From: Agarivorans sp. TSD2052 | Lineage (GTDB): Bacteria > Pseudomonadota > Gammaproteobacteria > Enterobacterales > Celerinatantimonadaceae | DNA: 64,000 nt | Assembly (NCBI RefSeq): GCF_023238625.1 | Contig: NZ_CP096670.1 | Span: forward strand, 857,501 to 921,500 | Direction: 5' to 3' | Shown here: positions 1 to 23,152 of the stretch, one piece after another | Layout: every line of letters begins with the position of its first letter | Numbering within the stretch: the stretch's first letter is position 1 | Notes under the pieces: model-generated | The model's database searches: none | What the model was told of the DNA's origin: nothing | Seen by the model: the letters and a program-made list of their open reading frames with translations, nothing else | Translations under genes and position numbers: made by a program

Positions 1-984
1 TGGGAAGTTTACTGCAGACAAGGTTGAACCGTTGTCTGAGTACTTGGCCATTTTTGACGCCACTTCAATACCAATGTTCTCTTGCGCTTCTTGAGTTGAG
101 CCACCTACGTGTGGACTAAGAATCACATTATCAAAAGCGAGTAGTGGCGATTCAAAGGCTTCTTTGTTTGATTTTGGCTCTGTTGGGAATACATCAATGG
201 CTGCACCAGCCAGTTTTTTGTTTTCTAATACAGAGACTAGCGCATCGATGTCTACAACAGTACCGCGCGATGCATTGATCAGGATAGAACCTTGTTTCAT
301 TGCAGCAAACTGCGCTTCACCAAACATGTATTTAGTTTGTGCTGTTTCTGGCACGTGTAGGCTTACTACGTCGCTCATAGCCAGTAGCTGGTCCAAGTCG
401 GCGACTTGAGTAGCATTACCTAACGACAATTTGTTCTCAATGTCGTAGTAATAGACTTGCATACCTAAGGTTTCGGCAAGAATACTTAATTGAGTACCAA
501 TGTGACCATAACCAATAATGCCTAGCTTTTTACCGCGAGCTTCGTAAGAGTTATCGGCAGATTTAATCCACTCACCACGGTGAGCTTTAGCGTTTTTCTC
601 TGGGATGCCACGAAGTAGTAAGATAATTTCACCTAATACTAATTCGGCTACGCTTCGAGTATTAGAGAACGGTGCGTTAAATACAGGAATACCTTTCTGC
701 TGAGCTGCTTTTAGGTCTACTTGGTTGGTACCAATACAGAAACAACCAATAGCAACTAGCTTATTAGCCGCGGCAAGTACGCGTTCGTTTAGGTCTGTAC
801 GGGAGCGAATACCAATGAAGTGAACATCTTTGATTTTCTCAATCAGATCATCTTCTGCAAGAGAGGTTTTGATCATCTCTACATTCTCATAACCCGCAGA
901 TTGGAAGGATTGTAGTGAACTAGGGTGCAGACCCTCTAACAACAAAACCTTAATTTTTTCCTTGCCTAACGAATACTTTGCCAT
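1..984 (-). CDS. serA: D-3-phosphoglycerate dehydrogenase, 3' end outside window
   Basis: Catalyses NAD-dependent oxidation of 3-phosphoglycerate, the first committed step of serine synthesis, in the cytoplasm. The frame stays open from an ATG at 984 to base 1, giving 328 codons. Visible are the start MAKYSLGKEKIKVLLLEG, the Rossmann nucleotide-binding stretch LGIIGYGHIGTQ, the motif NASRGTVVD and the catalytic region SPHVGGSTQEAQENIG. The E. coli protein is about 410 residues, so the C-terminal ACT domain that binds serine as feedback inhibitor lies beyond the left edge. Gene order rpiA then serA on the same strand matches E. coli. A rho-independent terminator separates serA from rpiA, so serA probably has its own promoter in the 985-1190 region. 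Confidence 0.96.
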   Translation of the reverse strand, partial: MAKYSLGKEKIKVLLLEGLHPSSLQSFQSAGYENVEMIKTSLAEDDLIEKIKDVHFIGIRSRTDLNERVLAAANKLVAIGCFCIGTNQVDLKAAQQKGIPVFNAPFSNTRSVAELVLGEIILLLRGIPEKNAKAHRGEWIKSADNSYEARGKKLGIIGYGHIGTQLSILAETLGMQVYYYDIENKLSLGNATQVADLDQLLAMSDVVSLHVPETAQTKYMFGEAQFAAMKQGSILINASRGTVVDIDALVSVLENKKLAGAAIDVFPTEPKSNKEAFESPLLAFDNVILSPHVGGSTQEAQENIGIEVASKMAKYSDNGSTLSAVNFP

Positions 985-1050
985 GTTTGCTTCCTAATAC
1001 CCATGTTACCGCTGAGCGGCTAAATTTAGCAAAAAAGCAGCACTTAGGGA

Positions 1051-1172
1051 ATGTAATTTTATTACATCAAATTAAATTCATATTGTAGATAATTAACTGA
1101 CAATAGTTAATTTTAAGAAATATACTACTGGCGAGATAAGTTTCCATAGAGTTTGTATGGATTAATCTATGG
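1051..1172. promoter_or_regulatory. serA upstream region with three inverted repeats
   Basis: The 200-bp AT-rich region ahead of serA holds three separate perfect inverted repeats: ATGTAAT-TTT-ATTACAT (1051-1067), AATTAACT-6-AGTTAATT (1091-1112) and CCATAGA-15-TCTATGG (1144-1172). They lie 67 to 190 bp upstream of the serA start, where operators are expected. I cannot name the regulator. In enterobacteria serA is controlled by Lrp, which prefers AT-rich sites, so Lrp is one candidate. Confidence 0.45.
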
Positions 1173-1189
1173 ATGGTTAGAATATTACA

Positions 1190-1224
1190 CAAAAAAAAGA
1201 GTGCGCTAGGCACTCTTTTTTTTA
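1190..1224 (-). terminator. rho-independent terminator after rpiA
   Basis: A 7-bp stem AGAGTGC/GCACTCT with a 5-base loop (1198-1216) is flanked by an A-run on one side and a T-run on the other. It could therefore work in both directions, but the only gene ending here is rpiA on the minus strand, 20 bases upstream. Confidence 0.85.
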
Positions 1225-1237
1225 TTTGTCCGCTTGA

Positions 1238-1891
1238 TTAGCGCTTTTTAGCCCCTTCAGGGGTGCCTATAATGACTTGGTTTGCACCACGAGCCGCAAA
1301 TAGACCATTAGTCACAACACCTACTATGGCATTGATATCGCGCTCCATGCTTAGTGGATCAGTGATTTTCATGTTGTGTACATCTAAAATCACGTTGCCG
1401 TTGTCGGTCACCACCCCTTCACGATATACCGGGTCTCCACCCAATTTCACCAACTGGCGTGCCACATAGCTGCGCGCCATTGGGATAACTTCAACCGGCA
1501 ATGGAAAGCCGCCTAGCACCGGTACTTCTTTGGTATTGTCGACAATACAAATGAATTGATCGGCTACTGCCGCAATGATCTTTTCACGAGTAAGCGCTGC
1601 GCCGCCGCCTTTAATCATGTGGTTTTGCGCGTTAATTTCATCAGCACCATCTACATAAACAGACAGTTCACTAACGCTGTTTAAGTCAAATACTTCAATA
1701 CCGTAAGCCAATAACTTTTCAGTTGACGCCTCAGAGCTTGATACCGCGCCTACAATACTGTCTTTCATGGTCGCTAAGGCGTCAATGAAATGATTGACGG
1801 TAGAGCCGGTACCTACACCTACGATAGTGTTTTCTTGAACGTATTCTAAGGCAGCCCAGCCAGCGGCTTTTTTCATCTCATCTTGTGTCAT
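1238..1891 (-). CDS. rpiA: ribose-5-phosphate isomerase A
   Basis: Interconverts ribose 5-phosphate and ribulose 5-phosphate in the non-oxidative pentose phosphate pathway. The product is 217 residues, close to the 219 of E. coli RpiA. Family motifs are in order: GVGTGSTV near residue 26 (phosphate loop), VSSSEAST near 50, DGADEIN near 81 (catalytic acid region), [11 protein letters not shown] near 94 and [12 protein letters not shown] near 126. It lies between fau and serA on the same strand, the conserved gammaproteobacterial order, and is followed at once by a strong terminator. Confidence 0.97.
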
Positions 1892-2035
1892 TACAGTGCT
1901 CCGAGCAAAGTGTAGGGGAGTGGCCAGTAAAGCTGGCTCATTTGGCGCGGATTATAACCAAGCCCTCGATTTAACGCCAATTGCTATTGCAGATTTTTTG
2001 ATTAATGTTAGTCAAGGAGGGGTTAGCGTTTGGCC

Positions 2036-2638
2036 TTACCATTGCCAGTCTTTGCTGGGGGTAATAATTCGCTTCAGTGGCTGATCCCAATCTTGCATCG
2101 GCACTTGGTCTACTTGCTGGCAATCGTGAGCTACGCCCACTACTGCTGGTTTCTCGCCATCACATTGGGCCAATAAGCGGTCGTAATAGCCGCCGCCCAT
2201 TCCTAAGCGATTACCTTCAGAGTCAAAGGCTACCAAGGGGGCTAGTATCACATCCAGTTGTTGGCAGTTTTGTACTTCGGCATGGTCAAATACGGGCTCG
2301 GCAATGCCAAACTGGTTGAGCTGCATGGGGCTATTGGCATGGTAATGATGAAAACACATTGCCCCGCTGGTGCTTGGGTCTACTAAGGGAACAAATACCT
2401 GTTTATTTTGCTGCCATAACCAGCCAATGATCACGCTTAGATCTACCTCACCATCAAAGGCCAAATATAAGGCGCAGCGTTGCATGCTGGCCAGTGTTGG
2501 GTCTTGCTGTAGTCGCTCTAGAATGGCTAAACCAGCTTGTTGTTGTTGCTCAGGGCTTAAGGCGCGGCGTTGTTGGCGAATACTCTGGCGAAGTTGCTGG
2601 CGATGTTGTTGATCGTGGTGAGAGTCGAGTTGGCTCAT
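2036..2638 (-). CDS. fau: 5-formyltetrahydrofolate cyclo-ligase
   Basis: ATP-dependent conversion of 5-formyltetrahydrofolate to 5,10-methenyltetrahydrofolate (YgfA/Fau family), a folate salvage enzyme. The 200-residue protein starts with a Gln- and Arg-rich helix (LRQSIRQQRRALSP) and carries the diagnostic GNRLGMGGGYYDR motif near residue 143. In E. coli fau lies directly downstream of the 6S RNA gene and is co-transcribed with it. Here the 6S RNA gene is about 20 kb away, so fau must use another promoter, presumably in the 113 bases before yebC or by read-through from it. Confidence 0.95.
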   Translation of the reverse strand: MSQLDSHHDQQHRQQLRQSIRQQRRALSPEQQQQAGLAILERLQQDPTLASMQRCALYLAFDGEVDLSVIIGWLWQQNKQVFVPLVDPSTSGAMCFHHYHANSPMQLNQFGIAEPVFDHAEVQNCQQLDVILAPLVAFDSEGNRLGMGGGYYDRLLAQCDGEKPAVVGVAHDCQQVDQVPMQDWDQPLKRIITPSKDWQW

Positions 2639-2711
2639 AACTATGGCTTATGCGGCTACGGGTGTGGTTTAGTGTGCAATGAGAGAGGGGCGTGATGCAA
2701 GGTAAACGACC

Positions 2712-2736
2712 ACCAAGCCTGAATAACAGGCTTGGT
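2712..2736 (-). terminator. hairpin just after the yebC-like gene
   Basis: A perfect 10-bp stem ACCAAGCCTG/CAGGCTTGGT with the 5-base loop AATAA sits 16 bases past the stop of the YebC/YeeN gene. No U-tract follows on the minus strand, so it is at best an imperfect intrinsic terminator, or a 3'-end stabilising hairpin. Confidence 0.5.
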
Positions 2737-2751
2737 TGAAAGGCTCAGCTT

Positions 2752-3471
2752 TTAGTCGAGCTCTACATTGTGATAAACGTTTTGTACGTCGTCACAGTCG
2801 TCAAGCATCGCTTGGAATTTCTCAAACATTGCCACGTCGTCACCCGATATTTGGGTGTAGTTTTGAGGCACGAAGCTAATTTGCTCAATCTCAAAATCTA
2901 GCTCTGGCATGGCTTGGGTTAGCGAGGTTTTTACTTTGAAGTACTCGGTATGTGGGGCAAACACGGTAATCATACCGTCTTCACTCTCTACGTCGGTGAC
3001 TTCAACGTCATCCATTAGCAAGATTTCTAGAATCGCATCTTCGTCGTCACCCTTAAACGCAAAGATAGCTTGGTGATCAAACATATGAGCCACACTGCCT
3101 TGGTTACCAATTTTCGATTTGGTTTTAACAAAGGCTTGGCGAACGTCGGTAAAGGTTCGGCTGTTGTTGTCAGTTAAACATTCAACAATCACCATACAAC
3201 CGCCTGGGCCGTAACCTTCGTAAACCGCCGGTACGTAATCTTCACCTGCGCCGCCTTTGGCTTTATCAATGGCTTTATCGATTACGTGGCTAGGCACCTG
3301 ATCTTTTTTAGCGCGGTCTACCACACTGCGTAGTTGCAGATTGGCTTCAATATCGGCACCGCCGTTTTTAGCGATAACGTAGATTTCTTTACTGTATTTA
3401 GAATAAACCTTGGTTTTTGCACCAGCGGTTTTGGCCATTGAGGCCTTGCGTACTTCAAAACTTCTGCCCAT
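2752..3471 (-). CDS. YebC/PmpR family protein, YeeN-like
   Basis: Member of the YebC/TACO1 family. Members have been described as DNA-binding transcription regulators, and more recently some as ribosome-associated factors that relieve stalling. The 239-residue product shows the family blocks in order: [30 protein letters not shown], the highly conserved [16 protein letters not shown] near residue 80, [14 protein letters not shown] near 105 and the acidic C-terminus [14 protein letters not shown]. The N-terminus and residues 20-40 resemble E. coli YeeN more than YebC. It stands alone, with hairpins on both sides, and is probably monocistronic. Confidence 0.9.
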
Positions 3472-3584
3472 GGGGATGCTCTTTTTTATCGATGCTTAAA
3501 AATTCTGGAAAGGATTTTACCAGCTGAAACGCAGGGAACAAGGTCTGGCGGGGGTTCTCGATCAATAATGCGGCGAAAGTTGCT

Positions 3585-3622
3585 AAATCGTGAGGCAATT
3601 AACTGTAATTACCCCACGATTT
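3585..3622 (-). other. long 17-bp RNA hairpin between operons
   Basis: Positions 3585-3602 and 3606-3622 form a stem of about 17 pairs with a tiny loop. Read as minus-strand RNA, the exceptions to Watson-Crick pairing are G-U wobbles. On the plus strand the same positions are A-C mismatches. That asymmetry suggests selection as minus-strand RNA, downstream of the LolA-like gene. No U-run follows on that strand, so it is not a classical terminator. Confidence 0.5.
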
Positions 3623-3650
3623 TTATCAATTCAACTGTGATTAAGTTGAT

Positions 3651-4400
3651 TTAGAGTTGTTCGAGAGATTGTTTACTCAAATAAGCGGGGTTGTAGTATT
3701 TGTCGGCTAGGCTGTGAGGCTCTACCGACTCGTAGTTAATGACCGTACTTTTAGAGGTTTGAATGCTATCGATAAGCGTCATAGTTTGCACCACCGTTTG
3801 CCCGTTCCGCTGGCCCTGCTCAAAATAAGCTTGCTTGGCTAATTTTCCTGACTTTAAGTAAAGATCGGCTTGTAGCGGAAAGTTATTATCTAGCGCTACC
3901 CATAAGTCTATTTTTTGATAGCTGGCACCACTGGTTTTGGCTTGGAGTGCCAAGTGAATTGCGTTTATCCCATTAATTACGCTGCGTTCGCCTAATTCTC
4001 CTTGGTAGTCTTCACTCCAGGTGAGGGTTGAGATATCACCTACCGATGCTTCTCCCAGTAGTTTTTGCATGGGTGTAATGCGGATAGGCCGACGACTATT
4101 GGGCATCAATAACCAGTAGTTATCCCCGAGCATTAACATTTTTTGCCCTAGCTCGGATTGGGCCTTAAATACCACTAAGGATTCACGCTCAGGACGGATA
4201 TACACATTGTAACGGTGCTGTTTTTTAAGCTGTTGGTTATGGTACTGGCTCACTTGGGTGACGACTTTAGCCGAGCGGCTTTGTAGCCGATAACTGTCGG
4301 CCTCTAACAGTCGACCACTGACCTGTTCACCTGCCTGAGCAAGACCTCCACAGCATAAACTCGCCAACAGCCAATATTTTGAAATGTTAAACTTAAACAT
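3651..4400 (-). CDS. LolA-like outer-membrane lipoprotein-sorting family protein
   Basis: Probable periplasmic protein of the COG2834 LolA-like group. It has a signal peptide (residues 1-23, ending GLAQA) and a beta-rich body with the group's typical line LGDNYWLLMPNSRRPIRITPMQKLLGEASVGD near residues 90-120. The 249-residue length fits this group, which is larger than true LolA (about 200). It is the last gene of the ABC exporter operon and its ATG overlaps the end of the permease gene by 8 bases, implying translational coupling. The likely role is to accept or chaperone a lipid or lipoprotein substrate delivered by the exporter. The substrate is not shown by the sequence. Confidence 0.8.
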   Translation of the reverse strand: MFKFNISKYWLLASLCCGGLAQAGEQVSGRLLEADSYRLQSRSAKVVTQVSQYHNQQLKKQHRYNVYIRPERESLVVFKAQSELGQKMLMLGDNYWLLMPNSRRPIRITPMQKLLGEASVGDISTLTWSEDYQGELGERSVINGINAIHLALQAKTSGASYQKIDLWVALDNNFPLQADLYLKSGKLAKQAYFEQGQRNGQTVVQTMTLIDSIQTSKSTVINYESVEPHSLADKYYNPAYLSKQSLEQL

Positions 4401-5607
4401 AGATAAGTGCCTCGGTGATGGGCTTTTTTAAGCCTTTGTTGGCGGCGATGGCAGACGCGAGGGCGCAGATGCAAACAACACCTAACGACACAATGCCCGC
4501 CAGCATAAAGGAGAAGGTAATGTGTAAGGGGTAACCCACACTGCGCCCCGGTGGGGGGGGCATTTGGATATCGGCGAATAATAAGAACACCGATACTGAA
4601 CCACTCAGCAGTAAGCCAATTGCACTGCCAATCACCGCCAGTACTATCGCCTCTAAGATAAAGCCAATTAGTTGCTCGGAGTTGGCCGTGCCCAATGCTG
4701 ACAAGGTACCTATTTCACGAGTTCGCTCGGTGACCGACATGCTTAAGGTATTAAATAGAGCGACAAATACCACCAAGGCCATAATGATGCCCATAACCCC
4801 AAATATTCGGTTATATAAGCCTTTTACTGCCTCGTAGAAAAAGGCTTGTTTCCACCATGGTGTCACTAACAGTGTGCTCTGTTGCTGCGCGACTTGTTGC
4901 GCCAGAGTAGAGATATCTTGGTTAGCAAAGGCAAATACCGACATCAAACTCACTTTATCGGTAGCCAGCAGTGCTTGGCTATAATCTAGCGATACATATA
5001 CTAAGCGTTTGTCCATGTCTGGTACCCCTGTAGACACAATGCCTTGCACCATAAAGTCATAGGCGTTTAGCGCGCCTTCGGTGGTGGTGCTTAGCAAGGT
5101 GATCCAATCGCCAGGTTGAGCTTTCATGTTGCGGGCTAGCTCTTCGCCGAGTAACACTTGCGGCTGATCTTGGCTTTCTTTGTTGTTGAGCAGTCGCCCT
5201 GCCTTGACGTTAAGAAACGGCCCTTTTTGAGTAAACTCACTGGGTAATACGCCTTGGCCGATGAAAATCGCCGACTTATCACCATTGCTAATTAAGCCGC
5301 TAAATTCAATTCGTGGTTGTACTGCTTTTATTCCGCTCAAGGCCATCAGTTGCTGACGTTGTTGTTGCCAATTTTCTAGGCCATATTGCAAGGGAGAGTC
5401 TTCTTGTTCAGTAAAATACTGTTGGCTCGACAGGGTTAAGTGGCCGGTATCACGAGCCGCAGCTTCAGCCAGCGATTGATAAGTGAATAAACCAAACCCC
5501 CCCGCACTGACAAGCGCTAAAACCGCAATAGCGATAATCAGTACCGACATCATGCTGCGGCGGCGATTACGTTGTACATTCAATAAGGCATGTTTTACGC
5601 GACGCAT
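4393..5607 (-). CDS. ABC transporter permease, MacB/LolCE (FtsX) type
   Basis: Inner-membrane permease of the type VII/MacB superfamily. A membrane segment near residues 18-40 is followed by a large periplasmic MacB-PCD domain (about 45-260), then three C-terminal membrane helices of the FtsX domain (starting near 270, 320 and 368). The motif NTLSMSVTERTREIGTLSALG near residue 290 is the standard FtsX coupling region. Its length of 404 residues matches LolC/LolE-type subunits. The gene overlaps the upstream ATPase gene by 13 bases and the downstream LolA-like gene by 8. A single permease suggests a homodimer. Such complexes do not pump across the inner membrane but use ATP to drive work in the periplasm. 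Confidence 0.9.
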   Translation of the reverse strand: MRRVKHALLNVQRNRRRSMMSVLIIAIAVLALVSAGGFGLFTYQSLAEAAARDTGHLTLSSQQYFTEQEDSPLQYGLENWQQQRQQLMALSGIKAVQPRIEFSGLISNGDKSAIFIGQGVLPSEFTQKGPFLNVKAGRLLNNKESQDQPQVLLGEELARNMKAQPGDWITLLSTTTEGALNAYDFMVQGIVSTGVPDMDKRLVYVSLDYSQALLATDKVSLMSVFAFANQDISTLAQQVAQQQSTLLVTPWWKQAFFYEAVKGLYNRIFGVMGIIMALVVFVALFNTLSMSVTERTREIGTLSALGTANSEQLIGFILEAIVLAVIGSAIGLLLSGSVSVFLLFADIQMPPPPGRSVGYPLHITFSFMLAGIVSLGVVCICALASAIAANKGLKKPITEALIYV

Positions 5608-6281
5608 TCGGTTTTCTCCTTGGCTAATATTTGTCCGTCTTGCAGTTGAATTAAGCGGTCACAGTGGTCGCTCATGCGGCTATCGTGAGTAGCAATAACA
5701 AAAGTGGTGTTATGGCTTCTGCCTATCGCTTTCATTAACTCCACTACTTGGTGGGCGGTGTGGCTATCTAGGCTAGCTGTCGGTTCGTCGGCAATCACAA
5801 GGCGTGGTTGGTGCACTAGGGCGCGCGCCACTGCAATACGCTGCTGCTGCCCCCCTGATAATCTATCTGGCTTGGATTGAGCAAATTCAGCCATGCCTAC
5901 CGCCTCGAGAATTTGCATCACACGCCGTTTACGCTCTGTTGGTGAAATCGTGTTTAGAATGAGTGGGTACTCTACGTTTTCATAGGCACTCATTACCGGG
6001 ACCAAGTTGAAACGTTGAAACACAAAACCCAGGTGTTGGCGACGTAGTAACATGCAGTGTTGTGGGTCTTTATCGAGCAGCTTGCCGTCAAAATACAATT
6101 CACCTTGGTAGTTGAGATCTAGCAAGCCACAAATATTCAGCAGGGTGCTTTTCCCCGAGCCTGAAGGGCCACATAAACCGATCATTTCGCCGGTGTGGAT
6201 CTGCTCACTAATCTGGGTTAGCGCTGGCTGTTTGATTTGGCCTGTTTGGTAACTCTTAGAAAGACCATTAAATTGCAGCAT
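5595..6281 (-). CDS. ABC transporter ATPase, LolD/MacB type
   Basis: Cytoplasmic ATPase that powers the adjacent FtsX-type permease. The 228-residue protein has Walker [10 protein letters not shown] near residue 39, a Q-loop in [10 protein letters not shown] near 91, the signature [15 protein letters not shown] near 142, Walker [13 protein letters not shown] near 161 and the H-loop ATHD near 199. This layout is diagnostic of the LolD/MacB/FtsE subfamily. It is the second gene of the operon, 34 bases after a periplasmic helical protein gene, and overlaps the permease gene by 13 bases. Confidence 0.93.
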
Positions 6282-6315
6282 GATGTGTCCTTATATCAAT
6301 CTAGTTGTGTAGTGC

Positions 6316-6945
6316 TTAGCCGTTGCTATGTTGGGCCATTAACTGCGCTGCCATTTGGCTATATTGGTCGTTTACGCTGGCCTGCTTAAGTTGTGCAAAC
6401 CACTGTTCGGCCAGCGCTGTTTGTTCTGCATTCAGGGCAGCTTCTATGGCATAGCGGTAGACCCAGCTAGTGGCTTGGGCAGGAGATTGAAGAAAGCGAG
6501 AGTCACTTAGCACTTGGTCAAATAGCTCCATTCCGCGTTCTTGGTAATTAAAAAATGTAGGCACACTGGTAAAAGTAACCGCAGCGGTGGCTTGCATGTA
6601 AATGGCTTTAGGCAAATAACGGTATTGTTGTTGCCAGTGACTGTCGTCAATCATTGAAAGGGCCTTGTCCATGCGTGCTAGGCCGTCTTCGGTGTAGCTT
6701 AATTTGCTCCACGGTAGCCAAGCATCATCACCTTTTAGGGTTTCACTCGCGCCTAAATAAAAGAGCGCCCAAGGGTCACTGGGTTGTTGCTGATTGGCGT
6801 GTTGTAAATCTTTATAAACTTGATTCAGTTCAGAGTAATCACCTTGCGCGGCGGTAAAGTAACGATCCAATAGTTGTTCATCGACAGTGGCCTGTGCTGA
6901 ATAACTGCAAATGAGTATTAGGCTGGCGAGTGTTAACTTTTTCAT
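6316..6945 (-). CDS. periplasmic helical (TPR-like) protein of the ABC operon
   Basis: Unassigned 209-residue protein with a clear signal peptide (MKKLTLASLILICSYSAQA). The mature part is almost all helix with tandem hairpin-like segments (for example LLDRYFTAAQGDYSELNQVYKDL and DPWALFYLGASETLKGD), as in tetratricopeptide-type adaptor proteins. It is the first gene of the operon and lies 34 bases before the ATPase. I infer a periplasmic accessory protein that helps the MacB/Lol-like machine recognise its substrate. No catalytic motif is visible. Confidence 0.7.
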   Translation of the reverse strand: MKKLTLASLILICSYSAQATVDEQLLDRYFTAAQGDYSELNQVYKDLQHANQQQPSDPWALFYLGASETLKGDDAWLPWSKLSYTEDGLARMDKALSMIDDSHWQQQYRYLPKAIYMQATAAVTFTSVPTFFNYQERGMELFDQVLSDSRFLQSPAQATSWVYRYAIEAALNAEQTALAEQWFAQLKQASVNDQYSQMAAQLMAQHSNG

Positions 6946-7116
6946 GATGCTTCCTTGTCTGGTTTGGGTACATCACTAAGCCTACTGAGTTTACGGGCTG
7001 GTAAAGTCGCTTTGCGACGAAATGCCAATAAGACCGACTAATGGTGATATACAAGGAAGTGAAGATCGGTGGTGTTGGGGCAACAGAGAAACAAGGGGTA
7101 ATCAAGCATGCTATTT

Positions 7117-7144
7117 GCTCCCCAGAGGATAAAAAGCGGGGAGC
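7117..7144 (-). terminator. hairpin after the osmC-like gene
   Basis: A perfect 7-bp GC-rich stem GCTCCCC/GGGGAGC with a 14-base loop begins 18 bases past the osmC-like stop codon. The U-tract is missing (AAATAG follows on the minus strand), so termination is only inferred from its position. Confidence 0.4.
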
Positions 7145-7162
7145 TATTGCCGATTGATAAAC

Positions 7163-7627
7163 TTAACGCACAATGTGGGTCGTTATTTTGCTGGTTACCG
7201 AATTAGCAATAAAACACTGCTGGTGGGCTTGATGGTGCATTTTTTCAAGTTTAGCCAGGCTAATGTCTTTGTTTGCAAAACTCACCTTAGGGTTAAGCTT
7301 TACCTCTATCATCGCCATAAGCCCTTGATCATTTAGTGCCATTACGCCTACGGCATTATCAACATAGCTGTCTACCACTAAGCGGTTTTTGGCTGCAATC
7401 GATAAGAAAAATAACATATGGCAGCTGGACAATGAGGCGACAAAGGCTTCTTCGGGGTCAACGTTGCCTTCAACCGAATAAGGCAGTGGCACTACATGTG
7501 GTGAAGAAGACGCCGGCACACTTTGACCACCATCAAAATGCCACCAGTGAGCGCGACTATAGTGATTGTTAATGTACGTTTCATCGGCTTGACGTTGCCA
7601 TTCTACGGTCGCGGTATATTCAGACAT
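7163..7627 (-). CDS. OsmC family protein
   Basis: Member of the OsmC/Ohr superfamily, cytoplasmic thiol peroxidases that reduce organic hydroperoxides. I choose the ATG at 7627 (MSEYTATVEWQRQ) because AAGGA lies 6 bases upstream; a further in-frame ATG two codons earlier touches that ribosome site. The 154-residue product has the typical N-terminal beta strands and the motif DPEEAFVASLSSCHMLFFLSIAAK, whose Cys near residue 74 is the expected catalytic cysteine. The second family cysteine is probably that in HQQCFIANSV near residue 139. It is closest to the YhfA/SACOL1771-type OsmC branch. It is divergent from the cupin gene that follows. Confidence 0.9.
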   Translation of the reverse strand: MSEYTATVEWQRQADETYINNHYSRAHWWHFDGGQSVPASSSPHVVPLPYSVEGNVDPEEAFVASLSSCHMLFFLSIAAKNRLVVDSYVDNAVGVMALNDQGLMAMIEVKLNPKVSFANKDISLAKLEKMHHQAHQQCFIANSVTSKITTHIVR

Positions 7628-7803
7628 GCGCATTCCTTGCGTGGTTGTTCCCAAGAGGATGCTAGTTAGCATGCTGACCTCGTTGCTGACTGTCAAATTT
7701 AGCGTATATAGCTCAACTAGAACGCTTAGAAATATGTCTTCGACTTGAAATTTGTGGCTAATAAGTCAACTCTATTCAACATAGCCTTCAGTTAGGAAAA
7801 ACA

Positions 7804-8469
7804 ATGTTGAACATGGACTTTAGCCAAGCGTTGGCAGTTAACACCGAGCAAATAGAATGGGTGACAAGCCCATCAGCGGGAGTATTGCGCAAACCATTAG
7901 AGCGTGAAGCCAAGGAATCGGGCCATGTCACTAGCGTTGTACAGTATCAGCCAGACTCCTACTTCCCCGAGCACCAACATCCAATGGGCGAAGAAATTCT
8001 GGTACTAGAGGGGATATTTTCTGATGAACATGGCGACTACCCAGCAGGGACATACATTCGCAACCCTCCTGGCAGTGCGCACAGCCCTTTTAGTAAAGAC
8101 GGTTGTGTGATCTTTGTTAAGCTTAATCAGTTTGACACACGCGATCTTACCGAGATACGCGTAGATACCCATAACACGCCCTGGTTACCAGGCATTGGCG
8201 GCCTTGAGGTCATGCCTTTACACCAGTTTGAGCACGAGAATGTGGCCTTGGTTAAATGGCCTGCGGGTGAAGTATTTCAGCCACATAGTCATTTTGGCGG
8301 TGAAGAGATCTTAGTATTGACCGGCGAGTTTAAAGACGAGCATGGTAGCTACCCTAAGCACACTTGGCTACGCAGCCCACACATGAGCAAGCACCATCCT
8401 TTTGTCGAGCAAGAAACCATTATTTTGGTGAAAACTGGACACCTACCTTTGGGCAACGAGGGGGTTTAG
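7804..8469 (+). CDS. double-cupin protein of the ChrR-like cupin family
   Basis: The 221-residue protein consists of two tandem cupin domains (about residues 15-110 and 120-215). Each has the metal-binding pattern: EHQHPMGEEILVLEG in the first and PHSHFGGEEILVLTG in the second. Domains of this type form the C-terminal half of the anti-sigma factor ChrR, but the zinc-binding N-terminal anti-sigma domain is absent. This is therefore a stand-alone cupin (COG3806 type), not an anti-sigma factor. An AGGA ribosome site precedes the ATG. Being divergent from an OsmC gene fits an oxidative-stress setting, which is inference. The substrate is unknown. Confidence 0.85.
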   Translation: MLNMDFSQALAVNTEQIEWVTSPSAGVLRKPLEREAKESGHVTSVVQYQPDSYFPEHQHPMGEEILVLEGIFSDEHGDYPAGTYIRNPPGSAHSPFSKDGCVIFVKLNQFDTRDLTEIRVDTHNTPWLPGIGGLEVMPLHQFEHENVALVKWPAGEVFQPHSHFGGEEILVLTGEFKDEHGSYPKHTWLRSPHMSKHHPFVEQETIILVKTGHLPLGNEGV

Positions 8470-8653
8470 CAAAGAGGGCGTAAAGGCGGCGCTCAAATGA
8501 GGAGAGTCGGTGAACGCCGCCCTTACTAAACTAACTAAAAATAACGATTGATTAAGTGCTTAGCTGTCTTTGTTATAGCAAGGCAAACAATACAAAGAGG
8601 GCGTAAAGGCGGCGCTCAAATGAGGAGAGTCGGCGAGCACCGCCCTTACTAAA
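8470..8653. repeat. two copies of a 61-bp hairpin-forming repeat
   Basis: Copies at 8470-8530 and 8593-8653 differ at only three of 61 bases. Each can fold into a stem of 10 positions with 9 pairs (8485-8494 with 8512-8521, and 8608-8617 with 8635-8644). The mismatch falls at a different position in each copy, so the fold survives the substitutions. Similarity continues weakly for another 25 bases. The first copy starts inside or just after the cupin stop codon. I saw no third copy in the window. From 8654 to 8920 I see nothing else except AT-rich DNA. Confidence 0.75.
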
Positions 8654-8922
8654 AAGAACTATTGATTGAGCACTATTGGGCCAACACGAGTCTGAGCGTT
8701 ATCCCTGTGCAGTTTCCTGATGATTAGCCTGTGAGCAATCAATCCAAGTTTAGTTCAATAGCCTATCTGGTTATTAATGCTATCTTAATATTGTACTACA
8801 ATATGTGATTTGGCTTGCAAATGCAGCCATTGAGCAGAAAAAAGTTGATTTAAGGCTGCTTGTAGTGACTTGATTGGTTAGTCGTAGTTAACTTGATTAT
8901 CGTTTAGCGTCTGCTTTACCTG

Positions 8923-8945
8923 CAAAAAAAGGGCTGACACAGCCT
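8923..8945 (-). terminator. rho-independent terminator of the LacI-type gene
   Basis: On the minus strand GGCTG-TGT-CAGCC is followed by CTTTTTTT. The hairpin begins immediately after the regulator's stop codon. Confidence 0.75.
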
Positions 8946-10004
8946 TTAAGGCAGGGCGTTTTTTATTTGCAGTAGTAGCCGCTCCAACGCTGCTTTGTTA
9001 TAGCTCTGCTCGGTGAACAGCTGAGTACTTTGGCGCTCAATCAATTGCGTTGCTATAGACGCTTTTAAAGGCAGCGAACTGCTTTTATCATCAAACAACA
9101 TGGCTATTGCTCGCTCTGATATAAGTGAAAAATCTTGTTTAATGGTGGTGAGAGGCGGGGAGAAGTAAGCACTGTCGGCACTATCATCAAAGCCTATCAC
9201 TGCCACTTGCTGAGGCACTGTCAACGCATGCTCATGTAGTGCACGCAATACCCCAAGGGCCATCTGATCACTCGCCACCAACACCCCATCAATTTGGGCC
9301 CCGTTACGCAGTGCTTCGCGGGTGAGTTGGTAGCCACTGCTGGCAAGCCAATCGCCTTCTAGTTGGGCCACCACAGTCGCTTTTTGTCGCTCTATTTGGG
9401 CCAACCAACCTTGTAAACGTAATTTGGAAGCGCTGGAATCACTCGGACCGGTAAGCAACAACAACCTGTGTCGTTGCTGCTTAAGCATCAAGCTAGCGGC
9501 ATCACTTGCACCTTGGTAATGCGCTGCACTGACGGAATTAACCTGGCTGTCATCGGGCACATCAATAAATACAAAATGTAAATTGGGAAACAGCTCAACC
9601 AATTGCTCGGCTTCGTTTTTGGTTAGCGGTAGGTTAACGATGATGTATTCGATACGTTGGGATGTTAGCTCGCGTGTGGCACTAACAATTTTGTCGAAGG
9701 CATGCTCATCGACCACTGAGAACGCGGTGCCAAAATCGTGCCGCTGCGCTTGAATACGAATGTTATTGGCGATAAGTGAAATGCCGTGCAGCGATACATC
9801 TAAAGTGATTAAGCCAATGACCTTTGATTTAGCTCCGCTTAATAATTGCGCGCCTTTGTTTGGCACATAACCCAATTGCGCAATGGCAGCGTTGACTTTA
9901 TCTCGGGTATCTTGGGCTACATTGCTGGCACCATTGGTGACGCGAGACACAGTTTGAGTCGATACTCCTGCTAACTCAGCCACTTGTTTGAATGTAACAC
10001 TCAC
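8946..10004 (-). CDS. LacI/GalR family transcription regulator of the alpha-galactoside module
   Basis: Cytoplasmic repressor of 352 residues. The N-terminal LacI helix-turn-helix is textbook (VTFKQVAELAGVSTQTVSRVTNG, then KVNAAIAQLGYVPN as the hinge lead-in). The rest is a periplasmic-binding-protein-like sugar-sensing domain, with LLLLTGPSDSSASKLRLQGW near residue 180 and VLVASDQMALGVLRALHE near 240. It is divergent from the alpha-galactosidase and symporter genes, and the intergenic region holds three matching operators. Its inducer is most likely an alpha-galactoside or galactose, inferred from that neighbourhood. Confidence 0.93.
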   Translation of the reverse strand: MSVTFKQVAELAGVSTQTVSRVTNGASNVAQDTRDKVNAAIAQLGYVPNKGAQLLSGAKSKVIGLITLDVSLHGISLIANNIRIQAQRHDFGTAFSVVDEHAFDKIVSATRELTSQRIEYIIVNLPLTKNEAEQLVELFPNLHFVFIDVPDDSQVNSVSAAHYQGASDAASLMLKQQRHRLLLLTGPSDSSASKLRLQGWLAQIERQKATVVAQLEGDWLASSGYQLTREALRNGAQIDGVLVASDQMALGVLRALHEHALTVPQQVAVIGFDDSADSAYFSPPLTTIKQDFSLISERAIAMLFDDKSSSLPLKASIATQLIERQSTQLFTEQSYNKAALERLLLQIKNALP

Positions 10005-20606: not shown

Positions 20607-22061
20607 ATGAAAAAATCAGTAATTTCTCTCGCATTGTGTGTTGCGACTGTATTAACTCCCGTATCATTTTCTTTTGCTAGCAATGATACTAATGTACATA
20701 TTGAAACGGCTTCCATTGCTGAGCAAAGGTTTGAACGTAGAGCTCTGGAAGCAGGTACTTGGTTCATTCCACAAGTTCTTTATGAAACGATTGCCTCTGA
20801 AACGATTGCTAAATTTGGAGGTGACCGCAATAGCACAGTGTACTTTTTTGAACGACCTGTGACTTGGCATGCTCAGATGATGACTGGCAACAATAATACG
20901 CCGTATGTTCACACTTATCATAGTATTGAAGATGGTCCAGTGGTCATCGAGATACCTGCTGCAACAGAAGATAATGCTTTCTTTGGCACTTTGCTGGACT
21001 CTTGGCATAAGCCTTTAATGGACGTTGGCCCGGATGGCGCTGACCAAGGAAAGGGTGGTAAGTACCTGATAGTGCCCAAAGGTTACAAGGGTGATACCGA
21101 TGGCTACATTGTCGTGGAACAGGAAACTTTCCAAGGCTATGCGACGATACGTTCGATGACAAAAACTACATCTGAAGAAGATATGAAGGGTCATGTCGAC
21201 TACGTTACAAAAGGCGTAAAAATGTACCCATTGGGTTCAAGCAATACCCAGACAACATTTATAGCAATGGATAATGTCGTTATTGATACACACCTTCAGT
21301 GGCAAGAGCACTTTTCAACCTCCTTTTGGGAACGAGCACATCAAGCTTTGCAAAATGAAGTTGTTAAGAGTGATGAGAAAGCCATGTACGGTATGCTACG
21401 TCATTTAGGCTTGGAAAAAGGGGAAGCATTCGCACCTAATCAACAGCAGGAAGATATGTTGAATGAAGCACTAGTGAAGCTTCATGCAGAAATGAAAGAT
21501 AGTTTCACACATTATGCGCCTAAGTTGTGGGGTGATCAATCGCAGTGGACGATTCCTGTTAACAGAGAAATGATGCTAACCGATGCAACCTACACTGCTG
21601 ATTACTGGCACGATTATGCAGGTCGTGGAACCACATTTGCGTACTACATAGCGCCACCTAAATCTTTGGCGGAATCACGATCGACGACCTATATCAAAGG
21701 TATTCTTGATGCTGATGGAAACCCAATGTTTGGTGACTACGATTACACCATTCATGTCCCTGCGGATGTGCCAGCGGAACGTTTTTGGTCATTTCTAACT
21801 TACTCAATGGAAACAGGTAGTTTTATCTATGAAGCTGACCGTTTAGGTTGGGCATCCAATGAGCCAGAGATGGCATTCAACCAAGATGGAAGTACTGACA
21901 TTTACTGGTCTTCAGACTGTGAAAATAGAGGTTACGCTAACTGTATGCCAATTACTAAAGGTGAACAGTTCTTTACTTTATTTAGACTTTACGGCCCTCA
22001 AGCTGATTTCTTCAATGGCAACTTTGTATTAGGTGACATTCAACGTATTGATATTAAATAG
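20607..22061 (+). CDS. exported DUF1254/DUF1214 domain protein
   Basis: Exported protein of 484 residues with a signal peptide (1-25, ending SFSFA). The N-terminal DUF1254 domain contains STVYFFERPVTWHAQMM and YVHTYHSIEDGPVVIEIP. The C-terminal DUF1214 domain contains DYTIHVPADVPAERFWSFLTYSMETGSFI and the closing FNGNFVLGDIQRIDIK. The two domains together are common in marine proteobacteria, but no enzyme activity has been firmly assigned. It follows the barrel gene and ends at a terminator, so the pair may share the divergent LysR control. Base composition is somewhat more AT-rich than the galactoside genes. Confidence 0.88.
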   Translation: MKKSVISLALCVATVLTPVSFSFASNDTNVHIETASIAEQRFERRALEAGTWFIPQVLYETIASETIAKFGGDRNSTVYFFERPVTWHAQMMTGNNNTPYVHTYHSIEDGPVVIEIPAATEDNAFFGTLLDSWHKPLMDVGPDGADQGKGGKYLIVPKGYKGDTDGYIVVEQETFQGYATIRSMTKTTSEEDMKGHVDYVTKGVKMYPLGSSNTQTTFIAMDNVVIDTHLQWQEHFSTSFWERAHQALQNEVVKSDEKAMYGMLRHLGLEKGEAFAPNQQQEDMLNEALVKLHAEMKDSFTHYAPKLWGDQSQWTIPVNREMMLTDATYTADYWHDYAGRGTTFAYYIAPPKSLAESRSTTYIKGILDADGNPMFGDYDYTIHVPADVPAERFWSFLTYSMETGSFIYEADRLGWASNEPEMAFNQDGSTDIYWSSDCENRGYANCMPITKGEQFFTLFRLYGPQADFFNGNFVLGDIQRIDIK

Positions 22062-22122: not shown

Positions 22123-22350
22123 GATTTTATAGTAGTTGCAACCGTCCTTGCGAAATGGGGGCAGGCCTTGTCTCTTGCCCTACTTATTCTCATCCACATG
22201 TCCGGTATTCGCAAGAAATCGTAACTCAGAATTGTCCAATTGTGATTTACAACACCCGCTTGTTTGACGTTACGCTCTATTGGTGACTTACCTGCGAATG
22301 TGCAAGTTCGAGTATGTGATTACTATTTGTGGGTCGGTTTTTTAGGAAAT

Positions 22351-22569
22351 AAGTACCCAAAGTGTCGCTGTAAATTTTGCGTTTGAGCTATGAAGTTCTT
22401 ATCGAAAGCGAAATAGTGCCTTTAAAGGAAAGAAGTAACAGACTGCATGTGTTGTTTTAGCCTTTGAGCTATGAGGTTCGTATGGAGAGGGGAAACGCTG
22501 TTATTAAGAGTAAAGAAGGTCCCAGAGTGCCGCTGTTGATTTTAGCCCTTGAGTTGTGAGGTTCTAATG
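22351..22569 (-). repeat. three tandem degenerate copies of the 6S RNA 3' arm
   Basis: The last part of the 6S RNA gene (about 22595-22657) recurs three times just downstream in the direction of transcription, with shared anchor positions 22540, 22455 and 22375 against 22629 in the gene, so spacings are 89, 85 and 80 bases. The nearest copy keeps the exact 3' closing-stem strand CACTCTGGG (22521-22529) and the following CGGCACTC context. The farthest keeps CACTTTGGG (22356-22364). The apical hairpin that is perfect in the gene (22637-22656) is decayed in all three copies. Nothing gene-like was seen in 22125-22350. Confidence 0.85.
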
Positions 22570-22603
22570 ATGGGGGTAACTAATGACAAATGATAAGAGT
22601 AAA

Positions 22604-22786
22604 GAAGTACCCAGAGTGCCGCTGTTGATTTTAGCCCTTGAACCATGAGGTTCAAGGCGGGTAACAAATCTCATACCGTAGGCTTCTCAGTCGGGCTGAG
22701 CATGCTCAATAGTAGAAAAAAATCACCCTAAAGATACAATTATCGGCTCAGGGACATCACCAACTGGCGAACACCCCAGGAAACTA
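22604..22786 (-). ncRNA. ssrS: 6S RNA
   Basis: Small RNA that binds sigma-70 RNA polymerase by imitating an open promoter. On the minus strand the sequence shows the family's conserved blocks in order: GTTCGCC, GTCCCTGAGCCGATA, GAGCATGCTCAG, CTGAGAAGCC, and the apical hairpin CTTGAACC-TCAT-GGTTCAAG (22656-22637). The closing stem pairs CCTGGGGTG (22780-22772) with CACTCTGGG (22618-22610) completely, using G-U pairs. Ends are estimated from that stem and from the -10-like TATTAA at 22798-22793. Length is about 183 nt. It lies directly after zapA as in E. coli, but fau, its usual downstream partner, is 20 kb away. Confidence 0.93.
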
Positions 22787-22834: not shown

Positions 22835-23152
22835 TTACTCCAGTTCTTCGCCAGCGGGTTGGCTTTGTTCTAACAAAGCGCGCTCGATGGTGTGTTGCAA
22901 ATCTTTAATGCGCTGATTCATATTGTCAGCGTAATTTTGGTTTTTAGCTTGCTCGTTATGCAACTCGTAAGAGAGATGCAAACCAACCATAATGGCTAAA
23001 TGCTCGGTGCTACTTACACTACTTTTTTCTTTTAGTGCTTGTAAGCGTTGCGATAATTCGTCAGCAGCAAGACGAAGTTTGTCTTCTTCACCTTCTGGGC
23101 AAGCAACTCTATAGTTCTTACCTAACAATATAATGTCAACGCCCTGAGCCAT
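22835..23152 (-). CDS. zapA: cell division protein ZapA
   Basis: Cytoplasmic FtsZ-ring-associated protein that bundles FtsZ protofilaments. The 105-residue product has the family N-terminus (VDIILLGKNYRVACPEGEEDKLRLAADELSQRLQ), the conserved HLAIMVGLHLSYEL near residue 50 and a C-terminal coiled coil of about 35 residues ending in an acidic tail. It sits directly upstream of the 6S RNA gene and divergent from the PilZ and ygfB genes, the arrangement known in gammaproteobacteria, with a PilZ gene added. Confidence 0.95.
   Translation of the reverse strand: MAQGVDIILLGKNYRVACPEGEEDKLRLAADELSQRLQALKEKSSVSSTEHLAIMVGLHLSYELHNEQAKNQNYADNMNQRIKDLQHTIERALLEQSQPAGEELE

Follow-up and report, generated by a model that had tools for sequence, protein, structure and literature searches.

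Tandem partial copies of the 6S RNA 3' arm behind ssrS in Agarivorans and two further genera

6S RNA is a small RNA that holds bacterial RNA polymerase in check. In Agarivorans sp. TSD2052 its gene, ssrS, is followed by three tandem partial copies of the 6S 3' arm and flank. The Agarivorans array is a genuine feature with a long history in the genus, and it recurs: 1 to 5 copies are present behind ssrS in six of the seven Agarivorans genomes compared, and arrays of the same part of 6S RNA were found in two further genera. In the best reading, the duplicated 3'-end modules would at most provide additional signals for termination or processing; 3'-end formation is the most likely function of the array, if it has any, with neutrality as the main rival.

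The array in the Agarivorans sp. TSD2052 window

The window, the whole stretch of 64,000 nucleotides that was analysed, belongs to a chromosome of 4.6 Mb (genome G000). The features around ssrS are as follows, in the order in which they are met when reading from upstream of the gene.

22835..23152, minus strand: zapA-like open reading frame upstream of ssrS (ORF list), which we take to be zapA-like from its position and resemblance
22604..22785, minus strand: ssrS, encoding 6S RNA, parent of the array (RF00013, 120.5 bits, gathering threshold 46.4, full model 1-187)
22509..22588, minus strand: partial copy 1 of the 6S 3' arm plus flank, CACTCTGGG kept, hairpin broken (ends set by eye)
22426..22497, minus strand: partial copy 2, closing strand lost (CAGTCTGTT), clustering with copies of G005 and not with its own parent in alignment and tree (ends set by eye)
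22350..22415, minus strand: partial copy 3, with CACTTTGGG, clustering with the final G001 copy (ends set by eye)
22232..22342, minus strand: distal element adjoining the array, 93% identical to G001 and 87% identical to G004 over a slightly longer stretch
20607..22061, plus strand: convergent DUF1254/DUF1214 gene beyond the array (ORF and domain search)

The covariance search with the Rfam 6S model, which the sequence-only reading had proposed, found one normal 6S gene. As this was the single RF00013 match in both the window and the genome, the copies do not qualify as 6S genes, and the possibility that the whole array is a second 6S gene was ruled out. The partial copies that had been reported from 22351 to 22657 are real, three of them being found on the minus strand, and these limits are about right, as copy 3 extends to 22350. 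The similarity of the array to the 6S 3' arm is far beyond chance. Copy 1, the nearest, is 90% identical to 6S RNA over 60 nt and matches 6S nt 145-176 with 32 identical bases, as opposed to a maximum of 11 in 200 mononucleotide shuffles of the downstream sequence; the best-copy local score is 75, against at most 26 in 60 Markov-resampled sequences, and TRF gives a score of 242 across 22450-22657.

The hairpin-start anchors, counted 0-based from the start of 6S RNA, lie at 132, 221, 306 and 387, giving spacings of 89, 85 and 81; the first two agree with the intervals previously read from the letters, while the third had been put at 80. None of the three copies has an intact apical hairpin (GAACC..GGTTC), in agreement with its reported loss. 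The closing-stem strand is unchanged in copy 1, again as described, and is present as CACTTTGGG in copy 3 but lost from copy 2, so that a read-through transcript would offer its own strand and two copies as 3' partners, rather than the upper figure of four in the predicted range of two to four.

Several other sequence features were noted. A promoter-like TTGAAC-16-TAAAAT lies inside the 6S 3' arm (22655-22628, minus strand; 9 of 12 positions), one of 3 such sites in the region where 1.5 are expected; its second box reads TATAAT in some copies (G001_c1, G005_c2). A small open reading frame on the strand opposite to the units (starting MRF..., by eye) was dropped as a candidate; unit lengths of 71-89 break its frame. 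Elsewhere in the window, positions 8470-8653 hold two direct 61-bp copies with 95% identity.

Genes directly 3' of ssrS vary among the seven Agarivorans genomes (regions L038-L043 of G001-G006, and G000). Only in the array-free genome G006 was a 5-FTHF cyclo-ligase gene (fau/ygfA) recognised behind ssrS, at a distance of several kb, which sets these loci apart from the ssrS-fau operon; the ORFs of the other genomes were judged by eye and by synteny, and part of them were searched. The distal element is 93% identical to its counterpart in G001, whereas identity in the neighbouring genes is about 80%. A second copy of it in G001 (L052) has a tyrosine integrase gene on one side and a phosphoribosyltransferase-like ORF on the other, and the element is possibly a remnant of a mobile element. 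Integron integrases scored over the cut-off in six of the seven genomes, with three in G000. An interpretation of the variable region as integron attC sites was rejected: these integrases are either distant from ssrS or located on other contigs, and by eye the synteny-edge repeats and the distal element are unlike attC sites.

Distribution, age and known relatives of the arrays

Each of the seven Agarivorans genomes has one ssrS gene (118.7-122.5 bits with RF00013), followed by three partial copies in G000, two in G001, one in G002, five in G003, one in G004, three in G005 and none in G006; the decayed sixth unit of G003 (G003_c6) and a chance match in G004 (G004_c2) are left out of these counts. 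The comparison with related genomes suggested earlier has thus been carried out, and close relatives, six of the seven Agarivorans, are not free of copies. The units, 71-89 bp long, are tandem and carry no cargo. The proposed origin by slippage followed by decay agrees with their appearance, as the copies look like tandem duplications of which some are decaying, namely the sixth unit of G003, the G002 copy and the last G005 copy. G003, with its five near-identical 82-bp units, has amplified its array recently.

In a tree of the units (FastTree, support values not considered), the parents of all seven genomes cluster, and most copies are separate. Both the alignment and the tree place G000_c2 with the G005 copies and G000_c3 with G001_c2, the last G001 copy; the species that share these units are about 80% identical in the ssrS region. 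Because copies of the same type group across species, the array predates the split of these Agarivorans species.

For the wider survey the 3' part of 6S RNA was compared with the downstream sequence of each genome, with resampling by a first-order Markov model rather than exact dinucleotide shuffling. Within the order, arrays were detected in 10 of 137 genomes (six Agarivorans and two from each of the genera g9 and g19); no array was detected in 67 genomes of the class outside the order, drawn from the better-scoring ones. The Shewanella-like genus g9 is probably Shewanella, and decahaem cytochromes of the OmcA/MtrC type scored over the cut-off in all seven g9 genomes tested. Its 3'-arm arrays were found behind ssrS in 19 of 83 distinct genomes examined out of 129, which is not an unbiased frequency: all 19 came from a set of 30 picked by similarity to one array, the rest being 39 genomes without arrays and 14 further negatives. 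The third genus, g19, has arrays in three of nine genomes. The contigs of G300 and G311 (L172, L173) stop within or just before the ssrS arrays, and matching pieces are found on other contigs; G311, from g9, was counted as negative on 72 nt of flank despite such a piece, and the flank is 248 nt in G300 and 348 nt in G166. Arrays may accordingly be under-counted in draft genomes.

The part of 6S RNA that is copied is alike in the three genera. It runs from about nt 116-131 to 181 in Agarivorans, from about nt 120-125 or 157 to 181 in g9, and from about nt 111 to 171-180 in g19, thus starting at nt ~111-131 or ~157, mostly extending to the 3' end and always consisting of the 3' arm. Because the flank repeated along with it differs between the genera compared, separate origins of the arrays are suggested. 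Among 36 g9 copies, mean identity is 0.90 in the last 25 nt and falls to 0.83 and then 0.21 in the two preceding 25-nt stretches.

The same scan recovers two arrays of E. coli: that of rnpB, whose repeats carry terminators, with three copies of nt 327-377 at 113-bp spacing, and that of tyrTV, with the last 19 nt of tRNA-Tyr (tyrV) at 178-bp spacing. Like the former, the 6S arrays repeat the 3' end of an RNA (~50 nt in rnpB, three times) at fixed spacing behind its gene. The RNA is a different one, and none of 29 genomes tested from these genera and one neighbour genus has an rnpB array (a 30th, G394, had 96 nt of flank only).

The tRNA-linked repeats (TLRs) of E. coli, which include the 178-bp tyrT/tyrV repeats and rrA/rrB/rrF behind 5S rRNA, are described as one to five units per locus that immediately follow the gene for a stable RNA and finish with a copy of its 3' end (PMC8144298). 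In that account rrA, rrB and rrF lie between two terminators, the repeats behind 5S rRNA are transcribed, are processed into defined RNAs and bind Hfq and CsrA, their repeat is proposed as a signal for RNase E, and an earlier claim for the tyrT repeat is withdrawn; 3'-end repeats behind E. coli stable RNA genes have been known since 1978 and their function is described there as unsettled (PMC8144298). The 6S arrays share the position directly behind a stable RNA gene, the repetition of the 3' end of that RNA and the range of one to five copies per locus. TLRs, by contrast, belong by definition to tRNA or rRNA operons, and their repeated part measures 18-19 bp. The 6S arrays have ssrS as the host gene, which places them outside that definition, and repeat ~24-70 nt; the Agarivorans units moreover lack an intrinsic terminator. 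As for the 3'-end identity typical of TLRs, 11 of the 19 g9 arrays have 20-37 identical bases that reach the 3' end of 6S RNA, and in the window the 32 identical bases stop 6 nt before the Rfam end. The 6S arrays are best classed with the 3'-end repeats found behind stable RNA genes, as a variant linked to 6S RNA and a counterpart of the E. coli TLR and rnpB repeats. The literature searched contained no report of such a 3'-arm array for 6S RNA, as the sequence-only reading had supposed, but the kind was already known from these E. coli repeats.

Intrinsic terminators and base composition

In g9, 18 of 19 parents and 27 of 33 copies have an intrinsic terminator within 110 nt downstream of their end, which makes 45 of 52 ends in all, compared to 10 of 355 background windows. 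These terminators comprise 35 distinct hairpins and persist with stems that vary yet still pair. Part of the repetition is inherited with the units, as seen in the three identical hairpins of G232, and no terminators accompany the array of G290. In Agarivorans and g19, no intrinsic terminator was found within up to 600 nt behind ssrS; a pattern scan of the minus strand of the window likewise gave none, and no Agarivorans unit showed a hairpin with a T run. The array-free Agarivorans genome G006 has none in 600 nt either, and only 25 of 56 array-free ssrS genes (50 from g9, including G311, and six from g19) have a terminator within 110 nt, so 6S RNA need not end in an intrinsic terminator.

Agarivorans arrays are rich in C (0.27-0.33) and poor in G (0.09-0.15). 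With both strands of the TSD2052 window as background, C minus G is above the 95th percentile for 56-100% of the 78-nt windows in five of the six Agarivorans arrays, as opposed to 0% in one-copy G002 and 9% in array-free G006; the values for g19 are 51% in G069, 19% in G050 and 0% in G166. The array of TSD2052 contains a C-over-G bubble of ~78 nt whose maximum is at the 99.6th percentile of the window, while G006 reaches the 98th, a measure of composition only and not proof of Rho action. On these sequence data, most Agarivorans arrays fit the composition of a Rho site. The C skew partly follows from duplication, because the 6S 3' arm is itself C-rich.

Origin and possible role of the copies

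The sequence-only reading offered the copies as alternative 3' partners of the 6S 5' strand that alter the length or stability of the RNA. In equilibrium folding of 6S RNA with 100-360 downstream bases, standing for read-through transcripts, the 5' closing strand of G000 is predicted to pair with an array copy (0.84) and not with its own partner (0.00), and an array copy is also preferred over the own 3' strand in G001, G003, G232, G341, G290, G050 and G069, which would favour such a role in these eight genomes. However, the own arm is transcribed first, and G344 and G355 keep their own pairing, as does G339 at full length. Array-free controls (G116, G009, G026 and Agarivorans G006) also lose their own pairing, to unrelated sequence, when extended; it is largely kept in array-free G096, G149 and G242, and G016 lacks it from the start. 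Retention of the closing strand in g9, with the last 25 nt as the best-kept part of the copies, speaks for alternative pairing there, and the behaviour of the array-free controls speaks against alternative pairing in general. Conservation of the copies as partners is not supported in Agarivorans, where just 4 of 15 keep the closing strand CACT[CT]TGGG. Because the own arm is made first and so few Agarivorans copies keep the strand, we regard this role as very unlikely.

Copies of the 3' arm could also be scars left by integrases, if ssrS were an attachment site with the palindromic hairpin CCTTGAACC..GGTTCAAGG as its core and insertions brought replacement 3' arms that seeded the copies. One g9 genome, G318, carries a 9-kb island (L211, ~239-9232) inside the ssrS hairpin at GAACCTACGGTTC, with genes for a tyrosine integrase (372-1940, PF00589) and a resolvase. 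A replacement 6S 3' arm comes with the island, on whose far side, ~9 kb away, the displaced arm is found. The 5' strand of G318, similar to that of G387, pairs with both arms (-36.4 and -31.2 kcal/mol), so a fit to the island-borne arm only was ruled out. This island indicates that ssrS can be an attachment site and that such events duplicate the 3' arm. The start of the copies near the palindromic hairpin is in line with integration, as are the differing genes directly behind ssrS in Agarivorans and the fragment that follows the array in G000, G001 and G004, whose other copy in G001 adjoins a tyrosine integrase. Yet insertions do not leave cargo-free tandem units of 71-89 bp behind. Unlike in G318, no integrase or cargo lies between the window copies, no integrase match was found among the three window ORFs searched, and self-comparison of about 19-21 kb per genome revealed no further 3'-arm copy at E 1e-5. 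Integration is quite unlikely as the source of the arrays.

Our preferred explanation, held with slightly less than even confidence, is that the array consists of tandem duplications of a 6S 3'-end module with a modest function in 3'-end formation. The module (3' arm, 3' end and first flank) would have been duplicated in tandem in the zone covered by ssrS read-through, a change presumably tolerated because overlap with the 3' end of the gene leaves the first copy intact. The array would then grow, shrink and exchange units by slippage or recombination. Each unit would repeat a 3'-end-forming signal, in g9 the intrinsic terminator and in Agarivorans probably a Rho-type site, rich in C and poor in G, and/or a 6S 3'-end processing site; the array would stop or trim read-through, and unit-length by-product RNAs may be released. 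This explanation is favoured by recurrence at the same part of 6S RNA in three genera, by the anatomy shared with E. coli rnpB and tyrV, by the terminators at 45 of 52 g9 ends, by the C-rich, G-poor Agarivorans arrays and by the grouping of copies across species. Counting against it, copies decay and number from 0 to 5, the G290 array is free of terminators, the composition of G002 is unremarkable, and array-free G006 and 31 of 56 array-free ssrS genes also lack a nearby intrinsic terminator.

There is an appreciable chance, clearly below even, that the array is instead a neutral relic, in which slippage duplicated the 3' arm and copies were gained, homogenised and lost without effect. Copy numbers of 0, 1, 1, 2, 3, 3 and 5 in seven species would be expected of such a relic, as would the near-identical units of G003, the decayed copies, the copy 2 type without the closing strand and the absence of arrays from most genomes examined. 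It accounts less readily for the recurrence of arrays behind ssrS in three genera, always of the 3' arm, when 29 rnpB genes show none, for the survival in g9 of the last 25 nt (0.90) over the region 50-75 nt from the end (0.21), for the persistence of g9 terminators with varied but pairing stems, and for old units common to species ~80% identical. A more far-reaching proposal, which we consider rather unlikely, is that ssrS in at least three lineages has a fast-evolving but retained 6S 3'-end repeat module whose products, 6S-linked small RNAs or 3' isoforms, couple ssrS read-through to the level of 6S RNA or to the activity of Rho or CsrA.

The arrays add another stable RNA with the repeat anatomy known from E. 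coli, in lineages whose tested rnpB genes have none, and in one genome (G318) ssrS is shown to be an integration site. The two contrasting versions of the array, with and without intrinsic terminators, and the 0 to 5 copies in sister species constitute natural comparisons, which could tell arrays that end or process transcripts from duplications that are merely tolerated.
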